Of a stretch of DNA of 64,000 nucleotides, positions 31,076 to 38,392 are shown piece after piece; positions within the stretch are counted from its first letter, which is position 1; every line of letters starts with the position of its first letter. The notes under the pieces are model-generated. The model was not told where the DNA came from. It made no database searches and was given only the letters and a program-made list of their open reading frames with translations. Origin of the DNA: Ignavibacteriales bacterium. Lineage in GTDB: Bacteria; Bacteroidota; Ignavibacteria; Ignavibacteriales; Melioribacteraceae. The stretch spans positions 62,001 to 126,000 of the forward strand of contig JAPLFG010000001.1 of NCBI GenBank assembly GCA_026390795.1, given 5' to 3'. The position numbers and the translations under genes are program-made.

Positions 31076-31327
31076 ATGATTGCATTTTTAGTCATACTCA
31101 TTTTAGTTTTTGTTGCTGTTGATTTACTCGTTCGATTTGTAATCGACCCGTTAATTATAGCATCAAATAAGAAAAACAAAGTTGCAAAATCATTCACTCC
31201 GAGATTCGACCCGTCGGTTAAACTTGCAATCGAGACAATGTATGACGGCGGTAAACCGCATAAAGAAGGAGAATCGGGAAGCGCAACTACGGATGAGAAA
31301 AATCCAAATGATGCAGAGAAAGTTTAA
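31076..31327 (+). CDS. Small single-span membrane protein with TMYDGG motif
   Basis: An 83-aa protein I do not recognise, with a good ribosome site (AAGGAG) before the ATG. Residues 2-26 are a membrane segment, followed by basic residues (NKKNKVAK). By the positive-inside rule the C-terminal part should face the cytoplasm. Residues 53-59 read ETMYDGG; the rest is charged and probably flexible. The next gene has a similar N-terminal span (VAVDLLV against LSVDLIV) and the same motif near its end. This protein therefore looks like that one without its central domain. First gene of the HybAB-like cluster. Confidence 0.75.
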   Translation: MIAFLVILILVFVAVDLLVRFVIDPLIIASNKKNKVAKSFTPRFDPSVKLAIETMYDGGKPHKEGESGSATTDEKNPNDAEKV

Positions 31328-31370
31328 AACAATTAAAATAATGAAATGACTTATACCAAAAGGATTCTAT

Positions 31371-32042
31371 ATGGTCGCAATTTTTGTTCTGACAGCGTTT
31401 TTATTTATCCTCTCAGTTGATCTGATTGTATTAAAAATCCAGAGGAAAAATCATCCGGCATTTGTTCCGCCATTGACTTTGCATGATGTAGAAATATTTA
31501 ATGGAAATATTTTTGCTATTCCCGCGAATATAATTATTTCGAAAGGGCATACTTGGCTTAAGAAGAATACAGACGGGATAATTGATATCGGAATTGATGC
31601 CTTTGGAACGACGGCATTGGGGACGTTATCAATTCTAAAATGCGCGGAGGTAGGCAAAGAGCTAAAACGTGGAGAAATGATATTCGAAGGCGCTTACGGA
31701 AATAAAATCATAAAATTCCAGTCTCCTGTTAATGGAATTGTAAAATCTCTTAACGCAAATATAATTGGAAATAAAATCTCCGAGCCATATGAGACATGGG
31801 GCGTTCAGTTAATATCAAAGGATTTTCCTGAAAATCGGGAACTGTTTTTTTCGGGAAGAGAAGCCTTAAACTGGATGAAAAAAGAATTTATCAAATTAAA
31901 TAATTTTATTGATAGTCATTTGCCGAACGTAGAGATGGTCGGAACAACTATGTATGATGGAGGATCTTTAACGAACGAGACTGCCTCTTTATTAGTTGAC
32001 CAAAGTGCATATGATTTTGAAAAAGAATTTCTCTCATTATAA
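31371..32042 (+). CDS. Membrane-anchored GcvH-like protein with TMYDGG motif
   Basis: A 223-aa protein. Residues 2-21 are a membrane anchor followed by KIQRKNH, so the domain should be cytoplasmic. Residues about 45-150 resemble the glycine cleavage H protein fold: GHTWLKK, IGIDAFGTTALGTL, EVGKELKRGE and FQSPVNGIV. The hammerhead turn reads YGNKIIKF, one residue shorter than the usual ESVKAVSD-type site, so lipoylation is doubtful. The C-terminus carries GTTMYDGG (residues 191-198). No other glycine cleavage genes are present. It sits 15 bp before the ferredoxin gene and is probably a subunit or regulator of that complex. Confidence 0.75.
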   Translation: MVAIFVLTAFLFILSVDLIVLKIQRKNHPAFVPPLTLHDVEIFNGNIFAIPANIIISKGHTWLKKNTDGIIDIGIDAFGTTALGTLSILKCAEVGKELKRGEMIFEGAYGNKIIKFQSPVNGIVKSLNANIIGNKISEPYETWGVQLISKDFPENRELFFSGREALNWMKKEFIKLNNFIDSHLPNVEMVGTTMYDGGSLTNETASLLVDQSAYDFEKEFLSL

Positions 32043-32056
32043 AAACCGGAAATTAT

Positions 32057-32818
32057 ATGTCACAAGAAAACGGAATACTCTTTGATGTTACGCTTTGTGT
32101 CGGATGCGGTTCCTGCTATCAGGGGTGCAAAGAGGTAAATAATCTGCCCCAAACAAATGAAGATTTTTTAAAAGATCATCTCTCAGATAAAACTTTTACA
32201 GTAGTTGAAGAATACGGTGAAAATTATGCTAGAAAACTGTGCATGCATTGTAATGAACCGGCTTGTGTTTCTGTATGTCTGGTTGGTGCAATAAAAAAGA
32301 GCCCTACCGGCGCAGTAGTTTATGATGCTGATAAATGTATCGGATGCAGATATTGTATGCAGGCTTGTCCTCATAAAATTCCCCGCTATGAATGGGGAAC
32401 GACGAAACCCCGCGTACGCAAATGCAATCTTTGCGATGAACGAGTTAAAGCCGGTCAGTTGCCCGGTTGTGTCGAAGCATGTCCAAATGAAGCCACGCTG
32501 TATGGCGATATTAATCAACTTGTTGCAGTGGCCAAAAATAGATTGAAATACAATCCCGAGAAATATTATCAGCATATATACGGTCTTGAAGAAGCGGGCG
32601 GTGGTCATGTCCTGATCATCTCGCCTATACCATTCGAGCAGCTGGGGTATACTCCGAAATTGCCAAAAGAATCAATGCCTGAATTTTCAATGAGGGCAAT
32701 GAAACAGATTCCATCGGTTGTATTAGGTGGAGGAGTATTCCTGAGTGCGATGTATTGGCTTACAAAAAGAAAAAATCAAATTGCAATTGAAGAAAAAAAT
32801 ACTACTAATGGAAATTAA
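32057..32818 (+). CDS. HybA-like ferredoxin subunit, four 4Fe-4S clusters
   Basis: A 253-aa electron-transfer protein of the HybA/NrfC/DmsB group. Four cysteine sets are visible: CVGCGSC...C, CMHCNEPAC...C, CIGCRYCMQAC and CNLCDERV...CVEAC. A C-terminal membrane segment (about residues 223-240, VVLGGGVFLSAMYW) resembles that of HybA. There is no Tat signal peptide, which HybA has, so the Fe-S domain probably faces the cytoplasm. The gene is 6 bp before the HybB-like gene. No hydrogenase, molybdoenzyme or cytochrome catalytic subunit is encoded nearby. Confidence 0.88.
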   Translation: MSQENGILFDVTLCVGCGSCYQGCKEVNNLPQTNEDFLKDHLSDKTFTVVEEYGENYARKLCMHCNEPACVSVCLVGAIKKSPTGAVVYDADKCIGCRYCMQACPHKIPRYEWGTTKPRVRKCNLCDERVKAGQLPGCVEACPNEATLYGDINQLVAVAKNRLKYNPEKYYQHIYGLEEAGGGHVLIISPIPFEQLGYTPKLPKESMPEFSMRAMKQIPSVVLGGGVFLSAMYWLTKRKNQIAIEEKNTTNGN

Positions 32819-32823
32819 AGCAT

Positions 32824-33996
32824 ATGAAAGTCAACGATATTTTAAAACCTACATTTTGGAAAGTGGTTTCAGTTATAATCGTAACAATGGGTTTATTTTC
32901 AACTTATTATAGATTTTCTCGAGGACTAGGTGCAACAACTAATCTTCATGATGCCGCACCATGGGGTTTGTGGATAGGGTTTGATTTTCTAGGAGTCGGA
33001 CTCGCCGCTGCAGGATTCACAATCGCAGCTACGGTACACATATTTCACATCCATAAATATGAGCCGTTGGTTAGACCTGCAATCCTGACAGCTTTCCTCG
33101 GATATTCAGTTGTGGTTTGCCTTCTAGTAGTAGATCTAGGGAGACCGGAAAATTTTTGGCATCCGCTTATAATGTGGAATATTCATTCAGTAATGTTTGA
33201 AATAACATGGTGCTTAATTTGTTATACAACGGTACTAATTTTAGAGTTTGCCCCGGTTGTCCTTGAAAAATACAATCTCAAAGCGCCAATAAAATTTCTG
33301 AAAATAATCTCCATACCTGTTGTGATTGCCGGTGTTTTATTTTCGACTCTTCATCAATCATCTTTCGGTTCATTATATTTGATAGTTCCTGGAAGACTGC
33401 ATCCGCTATGGTATTCAGCATTGCTCCCTGTGCATTTTTATATTTCATGTATTGCTTCAGGCTTGTCTATGATAATCTTTGAGTCATATCTAATTGCCAG
33501 AGCTTTTAAGAAAGAAGATCAATTTAATAATCCCGAATTAAATATGAATATTTTATCAGGGGCGGCTTATGCTGTTTTTATAGCTTTAATAGCCTGCTTT
33601 TTGTTGAAGATTTATGATTTTGTTGAAAACGGAAAACTAATTTATTTGACGATACCTTCAACTGAAACATCACTTTTCTATTTGGAAATTTTGATTGGAA
33701 CCATTGTCCCGATCTGTTTGCTCAGCAACAAAAAGTTTAGAGAAGATAAAAAATGGCTCTACCTAATTTCGATCTTTGTTATTTCCGGATTAATTCTTAA
33801 CAGATTCAACGTGAGTATTACCGGTTTAACTGCCTCTTCGGGAGTAAATTATTTCCCATCATTTGACGAAATAAGCATTACTTCAATGCTTGTAGTATTC
33901 GCACTATTTGCTTTCAGACTGATCGCTAAAAACTTTAAAGTTTTTATTATAGAAGAATCCAAAGACTTGATAAAGGAAAGAGTGCCAATAAATTAG
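32824..33996 (+). CDS. HybB/NrfD-family membrane quinone subunit
   Basis: A 390-aa integral membrane protein with about ten hydrophobic segments, of the HybB branch of the NrfD/PsrC superfamily. It carries typical HybB blocks: GATTNLHDAAPWGLWIG, VDLGRPENFWHP, STLHQSSFGSLYLI and LHPLWYSALLPVHF. Proteins of this family exchange electrons between Fe-S partners and menaquinone or ubiquinone. Directly downstream of its ferredoxin partner, it forms the core of a membrane redox complex whose other half is unknown. Confidence 0.9.
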   Translation: MKVNDILKPTFWKVVSVIIVTMGLFSTYYRFSRGLGATTNLHDAAPWGLWIGFDFLGVGLAAAGFTIAATVHIFHIHKYEPLVRPAILTAFLGYSVVVCLLVVDLGRPENFWHPLIMWNIHSVMFEITWCLICYTTVLILEFAPVVLEKYNLKAPIKFLKIISIPVVIAGVLFSTLHQSSFGSLYLIVPGRLHPLWYSALLPVHFYISCIASGLSMIIFESYLIARAFKKEDQFNNPELNMNILSGAAYAVFIALIACFLLKIYDFVENGKLIYLTIPSTETSLFYLEILIGTIVPICLLSNKKFREDKKWLYLISIFVISGLILNRFNVSITGLTASSGVNYFPSFDEISITSMLVVFALFAFRLIAKNFKVFIIEESKDLIKERVPIN

Positions 33997-34020
33997 AACT
34001 AATAATTTTGAGTAAATGAT

Positions 34021-34737
34021 ATGAAAAATGAAAATGGAATCAAGAGCAATTATGAGATGCTGAAGTGCATCTGGATGGCATCTCATGTTATCGAGTATAA
34101 ATTATGCGATAACCAATTTGACTGTGAAAAATGCCTGTTTGATAAAGTTATGCGCAATTTATTGAATGAAAAAGAATCACTGTCTACCGGTATATCGAGT
34201 GTTGTAAATATTATCTCCGACAAATTGCAAAGCATCGAATACGATAATCAAGTTATTTATCTAAAAAATAATTTTGTCGCTAAGGAAATCTGCCCTAATA
34301 CATTTTATCTCGGCATTAATCCTGTCTTAATTTGCTTTCTTGATTCATTAAGCTCACTTATATTGTTTGGGTGCGGGGAAAATATTTTTGCTGGTCAACA
34401 ATTAATTCAAATTTTTGGTCCGTGGGGTGAGATTAATCTATCAGCACCTAAGAATTTTTTAATTCACGATAAAGTCGGCGATTCAAATGACATTCCCTGG
34501 AAGTCTCAATGGTTTGCGATAATTGGTTGCGATAACCACGATATTAAAAACGGCAGCTTATCCAAAGAGGAATGGGGTAGAACACATAGTAGAGCTATTG
34601 ATATTATCGAGGAGATTAAATTGAAGGTGCCTACAGTCGGAGAAACAATGCATGACGGTGGAACCCAAATCAAATCTCTTCACCAACTTCTCGGTAGTAA
34701 AAAATATGCAGCTATATTAAATTCTTTTAACCCTTAA
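34021..34737 (+). CDS. Soluble GcvH-like protein with N-terminal Cys motif
   Basis: A 238-aa protein without a membrane segment. The first 50 residues contain IWMASHVIEYKLCDNQFDC and a following CEKC-type pair, giving Cys16, Cys29, Cys35 and Cys38, a likely metal or Fe-S site. Residues about 75-150 look like a second, more diverged H-protein-like barrel (FYLGINPVLICFLDS, GENIFAGQQLIQIFGPWG). They lack a lysine at the lipoyl position. Near the C-terminus is GETMHDGG (residues 207-214), the motif shared with the two small genes at the start of the cluster. The same motif on three adjacent genes argues that all act in one complex. Confidence 0.7.
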   Translation: MKNENGIKSNYEMLKCIWMASHVIEYKLCDNQFDCEKCLFDKVMRNLLNEKESLSTGISSVVNIISDKLQSIEYDNQVIYLKNNFVAKEICPNTFYLGINPVLICFLDSLSSLILFGCGENIFAGQQLIQIFGPWGEINLSAPKNFLIHDKVGDSNDIPWKSQWFAIIGCDNHDIKNGSLSKEEWGRTHSRAIDIIEEIKLKVPTVGETMHDGGTQIKSLHQLLGSKKYAAILNSFNP

Positions 34738-34902: not shown

Positions 34903-36495
34903 ATGAAAACAAAAGTTCTAAATAAGCTAAGCGTTCGACTTATAATATCTATTTCATTTATCCTGATTAGTATTCTTTCGGTTTATACCTACTTTATTAT
35001 TAAAAATCTTGATAGTTATTTAACTGATACAAGATTCCAAAGCGCGTATAGTATAAGTGACCTGATAAAAAAATCAACCCGATATAGTATGCTTCTGAAC
35101 AGACGTGAAGATGTTCATGAAATTATTAAAACATTGCGTACTGAAATTGGTGTTAAAGAAATCCGCATTTACAACAAACAAGGTTTAATAATTTTTTCCA
35201 CAAACCCTGATGAGATCCTAAAAAAAGTTAATATGAAGGACGAAGCTTGCATTGCCTGCCACAACAGTTCAGTTCCGCTAAAAAGTTTAACAAACCAAGA
35301 TAAAATTAGAATTTATAAAAATTCAGAAAATACACGAGTTCTTGGCCTAATTAATCCAATTCAAAATGATCCAGATTGTTCAAACGCGGACTGTCATGCC
35401 CACTCGCCCAAAGTTAATATTCTCGGTGTTCTCGACGTTGTTGTTTCGCTTGAGCAGCTTGATTCAATAATCCAAAACAGTACGAGGAAGGTAATTTTAG
35501 GTTCGGTTTTTATTGTCGTTGTTATTTCATTTTTTTCCGGTTTGTTCATAACAATTTTAGTTAACAAACCAATTAAAAAAATAAGAGTAGGCATTGAAGA
35601 ATTAGGAAACGGAAATTTGGATTATAAAATTGGAATTAATTCTAAAAACGAACTAGGACAAATGGCACGCCGGTTTAATGAGATGTCAACAAAACTTGAT
35701 GAGGCTTATAAGGAAATAAAAAATTGGTCGGAAACTTTGAATGACAAAGTAAATGAAAAGACGGAAGAACTCAAAAATATTTACAACCAGGTTAATCAAA
35801 TTGAGAAGTTGGCTTCACTCGGAAAATTATCAGCAACTGTAGCGCATGAGTTGAATAATCCGCTTGCAGGAATTTTAACTTACAGCAAATTGATAACAAA
35901 AAAGTTACAAGCTTCACAGAAAGACTCTGAGCATTCAAAAATTATTGAATATTTAGAATTGATTTCGCATGAATCTGCCCGCTGCGGACAAATTGTAAAA
36001 GACTTACTGATTTTTTCGCACTCTGAATTGGATGAATATGCAAAAGAAAACTTTGTAAAAATAATCGATAATAGTGTGGCTGTTATAAACCATCATCTTG
36101 AAATAAACCGCATAACTATAATCAAAGAATTCCCTGAACTACCAATTGAAATTTACTGCAACGCATACAAAATACAACAGGCTCTGATGTCGCTTCTGAT
36201 CAATTCAATTGAAGCAATGCCTAATGGTGGAAAAATCACACTTAACTTAACACTTGAAAAAAATAATATTGTTCTTAGGATAATAGACGAAGGCATAGGA
36301 ATAGCCGATAAAGATTTGCCTCATATCTTCGAACCGTTTTATTCAACAAAAGAAGCTTCTACAGGTACCGGGCTTGGACTGGCTGTTGTCTACGGAATTG
36401 TTACTAATCATAAAGGGAAAGTAGAAGTAGAAAAAAGTTCAAATCAAGGTACTACGTTTAAAATAGTATTGCCACAAAACGAACAACTTGCTTAG
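34903..36495 (+). CDS. Sensor histidine kinase with di-haem periplasmic domain
   Basis: A 530-aa membrane kinase: membrane segments at about residues 9-30 and 198-220, then a HAMP domain, coiled linker, a dimerisation/phosphoacceptor domain with His315 (VAHELNNPLAG) and an HATPase (NSIEAMPNGG, DEGIGIADKD, TGLGLAVVYG). The periplasmic domain has two c-type haem motifs, CIACH (116-120) and a CX4CH (159-165). It likely senses redox state or a gas ligand. It is followed 12 bp later by its response regulator and sits after the HybAB-like genes, whose expression it probably controls. Confidence 0.88.
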   Translation: MKTKVLNKLSVRLIISISFILISILSVYTYFIIKNLDSYLTDTRFQSAYSISDLIKKSTRYSMLLNRREDVHEIIKTLRTEIGVKEIRIYNKQGLIIFSTNPDEILKKVNMKDEACIACHNSSVPLKSLTNQDKIRIYKNSENTRVLGLINPIQNDPDCSNADCHAHSPKVNILGVLDVVVSLEQLDSIIQNSTRKVILGSVFIVVVISFFSGLFITILVNKPIKKIRVGIEELGNGNLDYKIGINSKNELGQMARRFNEMSTKLDEAYKEIKNWSETLNDKVNEKTEELKNIYNQVNQIEKLASLGKLSATVAHELNNPLAGILTYSKLITKKLQASQKDSEHSKIIEYLELISHESARCGQIVKDLLIFSHSELDEYAKENFVKIIDNSVAVINHHLEINRITIIKEFPELPIEIYCNAYKIQQALMSLLINSIEAMPNGGKITLNLTLEKNNIVLRIIDEGIGIADKDLPHIFEPFYSTKEASTGTGLGLAVVYGIVTNHKGKVEVEKSSNQGTTFKIVLPQNEQLA

Positions 36496-36506: not shown

Positions 36507-37862
36507 ATGAATAATAACGAAAGAATTTTAATAGTCGATGATGAAAAAATTGTAAGGGAATCTCTTTATCACTGGTTTGAAGAGGAAAATTATATAGTTG
36601 ATACCGCCGAGGATGGTGAAACTGCCTTAAAAAAATATGCAAAGGAAAAATTTGATCTCCTTCTTGTCGACATGAAAATGCCGGGAATGAGTGGCCTGGA
36701 TTTGTTATCTAAAATTAAGGCAATCGATAAAGATGCTCTTATTATCCTCATAACGGCTTTTGCTTCGGTACCAACCGCAATTACGGCTTTGAAAACCGGG
36801 GCATACGATTATGTAACAAAACCTGTTGATCCTGACGAACTAGCGCATCTTGTCAAAAAAGCACTTGAACAACGGGCGCTAAAGATTGAAAACACTCAGT
36901 TGAAAGAAAATATAGATGAAATAATTAAACCTGATAATTTGATTGGCGATAGCAATCAGATGAAGAAAATTTATGAGCTTGTGCATTCTGTTGCCCGCAC
37001 AGATACTACTGTTATGATAAGAGGTGAGAGTGGTACTGGAAAAGAGTTGGTTGCAAAAGCCATCCACATTAATAGCGGTAGAAAATATTCTCCGATTATT
37101 ACTGTGAACTGCGGCGCTTTAGCCGAATCACTTCTTGAGAGCGAATTGTTCGGACACGAAAAGGGTTCATTTACAGGCGCTCAATTTAAAAGAAAAGGGA
37201 AATTTGAAATGGCTAACGGAGGAACAATTTTTCTTGATGAGATTGGCTCGATTTCCTTAAGGATGCAGATTGAGATGTTAAGAGTTATCGAAACAAAACA
37301 GTTTAACCGGGTTGGCGGAAATGAATTAATAAAAAGTGATTTTAGGGTAATTACTGCAACAAATGAACTTCTGGAAGAACTCGTTAAAGCAGGCAAGTTT
37401 AGAGAAGATCTTTATTACAGGTTAAATGTATTCACAGTTGTTATTCCACCCCTGCGTGAAAGAAGGGATGATATTCCTCTGCTTGTAAATTTCTTTATTA
37501 ATAAATTTTCAACTGTTATGAATAAAAAGATAAAAAACGTTTCAAAAGAAGCAATGGAATTTCTCATGAACTATGATTGGCCGGGGAATGTTCGTGAATT
37601 GGAGAATGCTATAGAAAGAGCGATGGTGGTTGGTAAATCTGATTCTATTATTGTTGATGACCTCCCATTTCATGTTTCGAAGAATAATTTTGATTTGGAT
37701 GGTGATTCGAAGAGCCTTTCTTCAATGGAAAAAAAATATATTCTCAAAACTTTACTTGAGAATAGCTGGAATATTTCTAAATCAGCTCAGTTACTTGAGA
37801 TTGACAGGGTCACACTTTACAATAAAATAAATAAGTACGAACTCCGCAAAGAAGAATTTTGA
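36507..37862 (+). CDS. Sigma-54-dependent response regulator (NtrC family)
   Basis: A 451-aa activator: receiver domain with phosphoacceptor Asp55 (LLVDMKMPG), AAA+ domain with Walker A GESGTGKE (about residue 173) and the sigma-54 contact loop reading GSFTGA (220-225; GAFTGA is usual), and a C-terminal Fis-type helix-turn-helix (WNISKSAQLLEIDRVTLYNKI). It pairs with the haem kinase upstream and should activate -24/-12 promoters; candidates are at 31022 and 29329. Its stop codon shares a base with the next gene's ATG. Confidence 0.93.
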   Translation: MNNNERILIVDDEKIVRESLYHWFEEENYIVDTAEDGETALKKYAKEKFDLLLVDMKMPGMSGLDLLSKIKAIDKDALIILITAFASVPTAITALKTGAYDYVTKPVDPDELAHLVKKALEQRALKIENTQLKENIDEIIKPDNLIGDSNQMKKIYELVHSVARTDTTVMIRGESGTGKELVAKAIHINSGRKYSPIITVNCGALAESLLESELFGHEKGSFTGAQFKRKGKFEMANGGTIFLDEIGSISLRMQIEMLRVIETKQFNRVGGNELIKSDFRVITATNELLEELVKAGKFREDLYYRLNVFTVVIPPLRERRDDIPLLVNFFINKFSTVMNKKIKNVSKEAMEFLMNYDWPGNVRELENAIERAMVVGKSDSIIVDDLPFHVSKNNFDLDGDSKSLSSMEKKYILKTLLENSWNISKSAQLLEIDRVTLYNKINKYELRKEEF

Positions 37863-38392
37863 TGGATATCTTTATAGCACCCATTAAATTTCACAACAAT
37901 TTACTACTGCAAAACCTTATTACTGAATTATCGAAAAGATTTCTTTGCAAAATTCATGTCATTATCCTAAATGTAAATCTAGATGATTTCTTCTCAATAG
38001 AGCGCAAACAATATTTTTCTACACAGATACTTGCCGAAGCAATAAAGCTAACCGATATATATAACGGTAAAATAATTATGGTGACCGATGTTGATATTTT
38101 TGTGCCAGCATTAACTTTTGTTTTTGGAGAAGCGCAGCTTAATGGAAAACATTCCATTCTTTCTGTCTGCCGCTTGCACGAAGAATTTTATTCCGGCATA
38201 TCGAACGATGATCTTTTATTGGAACGTACAATTAAAGAAACTCTTCACGAACTTGGCCATAATTATGGTCTCCGTCATTGCGCGGACTGGGATTGTGTTA
38301 TGCATGCATCAAATGGGATTGAAGAAGTAGATATAAAAGGAAACACTTTCTGCAGTAAATGCATTTCTAATGTTGAAGTCTATAAATACTAA
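37862..38392 (+). CDS. amzA: Archaemetzincin-type zinc metalloprotease
   Basis: A 176-aa cytoplasmic M54 protease. The signature is complete: HELGHNYGLRHC from His129, then CVM and a CSKC pair about 16 residues later. This corresponds to the archaemetzincin HExxHxxGx3Cx4CxM...CxxC pattern that binds a catalytic zinc and a second structural zinc. ATG at 37862 overlaps the response regulator stop (TGATG), so the two are translationally coupled. The family is best known from archaea and animals; the cellular substrate is unknown. A role in turning over the two-component system or redox complex is speculation. Confidence 0.9.
   Translation: MDIFIAPIKFHNNLLLQNLITELSKRFLCKIHVIILNVNLDDFFSIERKQYFSTQILAEAIKLTDIYNGKIIMVTDVDIFVPALTFVFGEAQLNGKHSILSVCRLHEEFYSGISNDDLLLERTIKETLHELGHNYGLRHCADWDCVMHASNGIEEVDIKGNTFCSKCISNVEVYKY

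Follow-up and report, generated by a model that had tools for sequence, protein, structure and literature searches.

A short peptide shared by accessory proteins of an NrfD-type gene cluster in Ignavibacteriales and the archaemetzincin that may read it

Why do three non-identical proteins of one gene cluster carry almost the same seven-residue peptide, and which component of the cluster does it serve? The question is raised by a 64,000-nucleotide stretch of an Ignavibacteriales genome (assembly GCA_026390795.1, contig JAPLFG010000001.1, positions 62,001 to 126,000), here called the window. The peptide reads ETMYDGG (31232-31252) in a small 83-residue membrane protein without an H-protein fold (31076-31327), TTMYDGG (31944-31964) in a 223-residue membrane-anchored GcvH-like protein that lacks the lipoyl lysine (31371-32042; A-type) and ETMHDGG (34642-34662) in a 238-residue GcvH-like protein without a membrane span and with an N-terminal four-cysteine motif (34021-34737; B-type), all on the plus strand. 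An earlier note on this DNA had listed the three peptides and placed them near the C-terminus of the two larger proteins; both statements agree exactly with the sequence. It had also proposed that the motif docks onto a common partner, perhaps the HybA-like or HybB-like subunit of the cluster. The genome comparisons described here point elsewhere: judged by co-occurrence, the motif is followed most closely by an archaemetzincin (peptidase family M54) encoded in the same cluster, not by HybA or HybB. We tentatively regard the motif as a putative recognition or cleavage site for the operon's own M54 protein.

A rare motif with a constant DGG core

The DNA pattern ACNATGYAYGAYGGNGG, which encodes TM[YH]DGG, matches three times in the 4,078,173-base (4.08-Mb) genome, each time in this cluster and within 3.4 kb; the reversed control pattern has no match in the same genome. 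Across 198 genomes of the phylum the pattern matches nine times, seven times in clusters of this type and twice elsewhere, and the control matches twice. The broader pattern TMxDGG yields 15 matches in five genomes with one control match, and as 13 of the 15 lie in proteins of the same kind, the motif is not common in unrelated proteins of the genomes searched. BLASTP aligns the motif regions of the 83- and 223-residue proteins (E = 4e-4) and those of the 223- and 238-residue proteins (E = 0.005). A chance origin of the motif was considered and is ruled out by the whole-genome and 198-genome counts with their reversed controls.

Among the relatives DGG forms the constant core, with T[M/L]x before it in most cases. 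The earlier wording (E/T)TM(Y/H)DGG described a real shared motif too narrowly, and the motif is better written xT[M/L]xDGG. Most orthologues possess DGG. Iterated local profiles collected 136 GcvH-like open reading frames (ORFs), in which DGG stands near the C-terminus of 67 of 74 membrane-anchored proteins, 47 of 49 without a predicted span and none of 12 receiver-domain fusions (66 of 73, 46 of 48 and 0 of 12 when identical proteins are counted once). Left out of these counts are three GcvH-like ORFs of at least 310 residues (L051, L071, L087) as well as the ordinary GcvH encoded in the window's own genome; fragments are counted in the group without a span, as is a GcvH-like ORF of ordinary length from L024. 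In the alignments used, conservation of D-G-G reaches at least 90% over 62 A-type rows and is complete over 37 B-type rows.

What the motif tracks across genomes

The archaemetzincin gene (37859-38392, plus strand) is the third after the last motif gene and, as listed, overlaps the preceding regulator gene by four bases. Its product belongs to M54 by score (PF07998, 97.7 bits against a cut-off of 24.4; E = 1.2e-27) and by the presence of HExxHxxGxxHCx4CxM...CxxC, the window copy having the intact signature HExxHxxGxxHC...CVM...CxxC. The catalytic motif was found in 47 of 48 M54 proteins (one contig counted twice) and is the signature of an active enzyme; these proteins may be proteolytically active.

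Among 197 genomes of the window's class, 79 encode a non-receiver membrane GcvH-like protein, 86 encode M54, 77 both and 109 neither. M54 is thus present in 77 of the 79 genomes with the GcvH-like protein compared with 9 of the 118 without it (Fisher 1.2e-41, which is not a true probability as the genomes are related). The GcvH-like protein served as a proxy for the DGG protein (profile A3, best E <= 1e-47), the motif having been read in only part of the 79 genomes. In 63 of the 79 the best GcvH-like match and M54 share a contig, always on the same strand, with M54 located 3.6-8.1 kb downstream in 62. M54 is unlinked yet present in G055, at a distance of 81.7 kb, and in G156 and G347, on different contigs whose sequence was read on both sides, in each case beside a kinase and a regulator gene. 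Among the nine genomes scored with M54 only, G014 and G317 do have DGG proteins, G348 has a match under the cut-off with stops, G251 has a distant one, and in G281, G330, G337 and G375 the M54 gene lies on a contig shorter than 7 kb; the ninth, G184, is a true exception and is considered below. The two genomes with the protein only are G252 (81% complete) and G289 (96%). In a set of 148 genomes of the phylum, 36 belong to the window's class; M54 was found in 11 of these, all of which encode a DGG protein that was read directly. The profile used there, A4, picks up ordinary GcvH as well, in every one of the 148 genomes; B-type proteins were read only at E < 1e-25, a cut-off that misses weaker ones (G014, G055).

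A scan of named genomes with an NrfD alignment supplied loci beyond the class. The 80 named loci, the best of at least 529 relatives, bear titles of Ignavibacteria, Acidobacteria, Calditrichota, Zixiibacteriota, KSB1, Gemmatimonadota and others, and non-lipoyl GcvH-like proteins with the motif occur across many phyla. DGG is encoded in 57 of these loci; M54 lies in the same stretch in 40 and elsewhere in the genome in 15 of the other 17, so that genome-wide it accompanies 55 of 57 DGG loci compared with 8 of the 23 loci without DGG. Among the 56 loci with at least 5.2 kb of downstream DNA, M54 is encoded in 34 of the 38 that have DGG and in 3 of the 18 that do not (Fisher 1.4e-7). Two of the eight genomes with M54 and a DGG-less locus contain a DGG-type GcvH elsewhere (G236, G238), two have EGG (G229, G231) and one has DAG (G235). 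Mechanical clustering of 61 DGG stretches, i.e. the 57 named loci, three from other genomes (one of which, L011, is the same contig as L014) and the window, found NrfD in 56, the kinase in 52, the Fe-S protein in 44 and M54 in 41. The ORFs were called mechanically, with some wrong starts and some high-GC genes hidden, and the counts of the HybA-like Fe-S protein are too low.

Five named loci encode non-receiver GcvH-like proteins that lack DGG (L071, L072, L076, L077, L092). In L072 and L076 DGG is missing and M54 was not found anywhere in the genome, and the GcvH-like, HybA, NrfD, kinase and regulator genes are retained. The kinase and the regulator were considered as the specific partner of the motif; their presence in the motif-less L072 and L076 weakens both candidates.

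These patterns suggest a scheme in which three accessory proteins of a quinone-reactive membrane complex of the NrfD type carry the motif as a tag, each in a flexible loop on the cytoplasmic side. The M54 protein would recognize and probably cleave xT[M/L]xDGG and thereby trim or remove the tail that follows the H-fold, or shed the tail of the small protein; the trimming might mature or switch the complex, whose expression would be controlled by the kinase and the sigma-54-dependent regulator. The charges around the spans place the motif tails, and with them M54, probably in the cytoplasm. A wider proposal, which we advance with still more reserve, is that xT[M/L]xDGG could be the first natural substrate tag of archaemetzincins and part of a protease-plus-tag module that controls two NrfD-type quinone complexes by trimming non-lipoylated GcvH-derived subunits, in place of the phospho-receiver control of a sister system described below.

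Several observations weigh against M54 as the reader of the motif. The evidence for it consists of the motif and its conservation, its place in low-confidence loops of the models, the gene set, the intact protease signature and the co-occurrence with its three unlinked cases and two joint losses; physical recognition, cleavage and any effect on electron flow are inferred. Some assemblies occur in both the class set and the named loci (G200 and G352, for example, have identical M54 coordinates), so the two tests are not independent. DGG and M54 are lost jointly in only two of the five DGG-less loci, one of which, L076, is degenerate, with no four-cysteine match and no DGG in either protein; M54 is kept without a local DGG in L071 (EGG), L077 (DAG) and L092 (a tail unlike the motif, with DGG proteins elsewhere). 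G252, G289, G206 and G213, which are drafts or have short contigs, contain DGG proteins, and M54 was not found in them. Of the 112 phylum genomes that lie outside the class, 8 encode M54, with weaker E-values and no B-type match, their best A4 match being no better than 5.6e-16. M54 is present and a DGG protein was not seen in the genomes of L056 (G220, locus cut upstream), L064 (G226, contig ending soon after M54) and L075 (G233, with a GcvH-like protein whose sequence was not read). Conservation extends to the C-terminal helix behind the motif, which one would not expect of a tail that is to be discarded. Finally, the unlinked M54 genes of G055, G156 and G347 remain in the company of the kinase and regulator genes, so that the link between motif and M54 could run through regulation, and G184 encodes the kinase, the regulator and M54 with no DGG protein in the 18.5 kb of their locus (L197) and no A3 match at E <= 1e-18 genome-wide.

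The last two observations, together with the overlap of the M54 and regulator genes, are those expected if M54 acted with the kinase and the regulator in a regulatory and possibly non-proteolytic role, with motif proteins and M54 related only as regulon and regulator. A model for such a function is CarG of Myxococcus, a bacterial homologue that acts in transcription and has lost the catalytic glutamate (PMC3427221). We consider this explanation unlikely: the catalytic motif is kept in nearly all M54 proteins, 10 of the 15 DGG-less loci that retain the sigma-54 regulator belong to genomes in which M54 was not found genome-wide, and it would not account for L072 and L076 having lost the motif.

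The proteins that carry the motif

The 223-residue protein has the fold of the glycine-cleavage H-protein, as indicated by Pfam (GCV_H, 3.5e-10), by its predicted model and by structure search, in which the model matches E. coli apo-H-protein 3a7l (E = 3.4e-8) and the best Foldseek matches are H-proteins of glycine cleavage. The 238-residue protein, which the earlier note had not called GcvH-like, has no Pfam match at E <= 1; iterated profile searches assign it to the same GcvH-like family, and its model has the same layout. The family shares its fold and, in the 223-residue protein, a Pfam match with GcvH (PF01597), from which it differs in the membrane anchor, the motif loop, the additional C-terminal helices and the lack of the lipoyl lysine. 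In the column of that lysine, K occurs in 6 of 138 GcvH-like rows and a gap in two; the window proteins have N (223 residues) and W (238 residues). A role as lipoyl carrier was rejected because the lysine is missing, and no genes of glycine cleavage partners lie beside the GcvH-like genes of the window.

In the AlphaFold models the H-fold is followed by a long helix, the motif in a low-confidence loop and short C-terminal helices. Block means of pLDDT over the motif loop range from 51 to 66 across the models, with a mean of 51 for residues 191-200 of the 223-residue protein. One membrane GcvH-like protein (L018:5397-6227) has a tail enlarged beyond ETMFDGG by a stretch rich in Ser, Gly and Pro. 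The earlier idea of a docking peptide holds to the extent that a short conserved element fits recognition or docking; this is a fair reading because the motif lies in a low-confidence loop and is kept in a protein without the H-fold. The loop could also be an element that binds a ligand or cofactor, its Asp and Gly-Gly contacting metal or phosphate for electron transfer or sensing. DGG is indeed the most constant part, and the B-type proteins contain in addition an invariant four-cysteine motif. We hold such a function to be very improbable, given that the loop offers a single acidic residue, is predicted with low confidence, exists in EGG and DAG variants and occurs in a protein that consists of little else than a span.

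The four cysteines of the B-type (C16, C29, C35, C38) do not vary in any of the 37 aligned rows, which suggests a metal or Fe-S site. In the window the N-terminus of the 238-residue protein (34021-34200) reads C-IWM-...-Y-x-LC....DC..C.FD.

The 83-residue protein is one of 17 small proteins (74-113 residues as called; 16 distinct, the window's included) that share a span and the motif; they conserve an acidic residue in the span, a basic stretch after it and then the motif. Among the loci examined, Hmc/Hyb-like clusters with a small protein are confined to the window, L010, L011, L013-L025 and L027. The earlier note had seen a similar membrane span in the 83- and 223-residue proteins and had concluded that the small protein looks like the large one without the H-protein domain. 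The similarity of the spans is weak by itself (11 of 51 residues identical, E = 0.021), but it fits the family of small proteins and the arrangement in G120, where two full-length membrane GcvH-like proteins stand in tandem in place of the window's 83- and 223-residue proteins; with these, the resemblance of small to large protein is upheld. Tandem GcvH-like pairs also occur in several named loci. The simplest origin of the 83-residue protein would be loss of the H-domain from the first tandem copy, which is plausible because of the gene position, the shared sequence being too short for proof.

Plain shared ancestry, in which the motif would be a structural loop that one GcvH-like subfamily has inherited and that has no separate function, is in our judgment the least probable of the explanations. 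The two large proteins are homologous and have a common helix-loop-helix tail, as ancestry would require, but in the small proteins the motif persists in the absence of the domain, and the loop flanks vary while DGG stays constant.

Related complexes and known systems

The core of the cluster is formed by a HybA/HmcB-like 4Fe-4S protein (32057-32818) and an NrfD-family membrane subunit resembling HybB and HmcC (32824-33996), both on the plus strand. The latter is an NrfD protein by score (PF03916, 105.2 bits against a cut-off of 25.8; E = 6.9e-30), with a match to HmcC (4.1e-88) under the cut-off. The closest NCBIfam models of the two subunits are HmcB/HmcC and HybA/HybB, and the Fe-S protein remains below both equivalog cut-offs (HmcB 266 of 420 bits, 3.5e-79; HybA 211 of 263 bits). 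The window differs from those systems also in that inspection of the N-terminus of the Fe-S protein revealed no Tat signal and in that no cytochrome or hydrogenase subunit is among the cluster genes. A Tat-like RRxF was absent from all 77 plus-strand HybA-like proteins of the 80 named loci, whereas a Tat signal is present in all eight minus-strand ones, which are those of divergent sister clusters. The HybA/NrfD module thus seems to be used on opposite faces of the membrane.

These two subunits are the natural candidates if the motif serves in assembly or docking and fixes the three accessory proteins to the complex, at the cytoplasmic face of NrfD or at the HybA-like protein, with M54 a mere member of the operon. 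Their genes lie between the motif genes in a conserved order. HybA-like proteins without Tat-like RRxF would be on the motif's side of the membrane; moreover, a small protein that has little beyond a span retains the motif, and M54 is kept in the three loci mentioned above whose GcvH-like tail is not DGG. Set against this, HybA/NrfD pairs that lack both the motif and M54 are found in Geothrix (loci L054, L065 and L066) and in L072 and L076; among loci that combine the pair with non-receiver GcvH-like proteins, the motif is missing in L072 and L076 and variant in L071 and L077, although the cases are few and one is degenerate. Motif proteins and M54 co-occur even when they are unlinked. In addition, Qrc-type systems have the motif even though their Fe-S subunit is expected outside the membrane, in the periplasm, because the molybdopterin partner carries a Tat-like signal, and the motif proteins are apparently cytoplasmic. 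The motif-less pairs and the Qrc-type system weaken HybA or HybB as the specific partner, and this part of the earlier proposal is unsupported; we rate docking to the complex as possible but somewhat unlikely. Cleavage, cleavage-free docking and a purely regulatory M54 protein, as in CarG, are all compatible with the data.

The Qrc-type complexes with motif proteins were found in G093, G078, G014 and G097. In L117, QrcA and QrcD score above and QrcB and QrcC under their cut-offs. The likeness to the menaquinone reductase QrcABCD, whose substrate and quinone sites are described as periplasmic (PMC6303296), belongs to this second DGG system of the relatives and not to the window, and the relatives' clusters differ in the addition of GcvH-like proteins, a small membrane protein, M54, and kinase and regulator genes. 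The small membrane protein carries LG[IV]TMADGG in L117, L118, L120 and L121, and the clusters encode two GcvH-DGG proteins besides, one of them cysteine-rich. M54 is in the same stretch in four of five Qrc-type clusters (L117, L118, L119, L120; not L121). Motif proteins therefore accompany two distinct NrfD complexes.

The window's genome contains a sister cluster (L103:4416-11561) in which genes for a Tat-type HybA, NrfD, a multiheme cytochrome and a kinase stand together with those of two receiver-GcvH fusions; one fusion is membrane-anchored. It has neither DGG nor M54, the window copy being the only M54 match of the genome. The GcvH-like domain here takes the place of a response-regulator output. 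As the domain of the sister complex carries a phospho-receiver instead, the GcvH-like domain may be a control point.

The genes downstream of the last motif gene encode a histidine kinase (34903-36495), assigned by its kinase domains, with CxxCH/CX4CH-type motifs in the sensor part that would allow heme binding, and the sigma-54-dependent response regulator (36507-37862), assigned by domain matches; both are on the plus strand.

The large proteins each belong to a known family; what is new is their combination, the tag and the link to the protease. The nearest working analogy to the M54 proposal is offered by the HybD-type maturation proteases of [NiFe]-hydrogenases, which are dedicated enzymes encoded together with a respiratory enzyme and act on the C-terminal tail of its large subunit; protease family and substrates are different, and the likeness is one of analogy only. 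GcvH-like proteins have been recruited outside glycine cleavage in another case, the LbpA-type proteins. These bind lipoate, unlike the window-type proteins without the lipoyl lysine, and belong to the Hdr-like sulfur oxidation system (PMC6067878). Descriptions of accessory GcvH-like subunits of respiratory quinone complexes were absent from the literature matches listed, which mostly exclude subscription papers, and a term search of the available text of an NrfD review (PMC8076601) returned no occurrence of "glycine", "GcvH" or "HmcB".

The window M54 protein, typical of archaemetzincins in signature and Pfam score, is distinguished by its location in a respiratory operon with a candidate substrate. 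A 2012 structure paper states that the natural substrates of archaemetzincins were unknown and that the Methanopyrus and Archaeoglobus enzymes were inactive in standard assays (PMC3427221); a third archaeal enzyme is reported to cleave casein, many physiological roles being given as unknown (PMC4681839). Archaemetzincins span archaea, bacteria and animals, and a tag that follows the protease across phyla provides a concrete and cheap hypothesis of a substrate. The finding also points to accessory GcvH-like subunits in respiratory quinone complexes.

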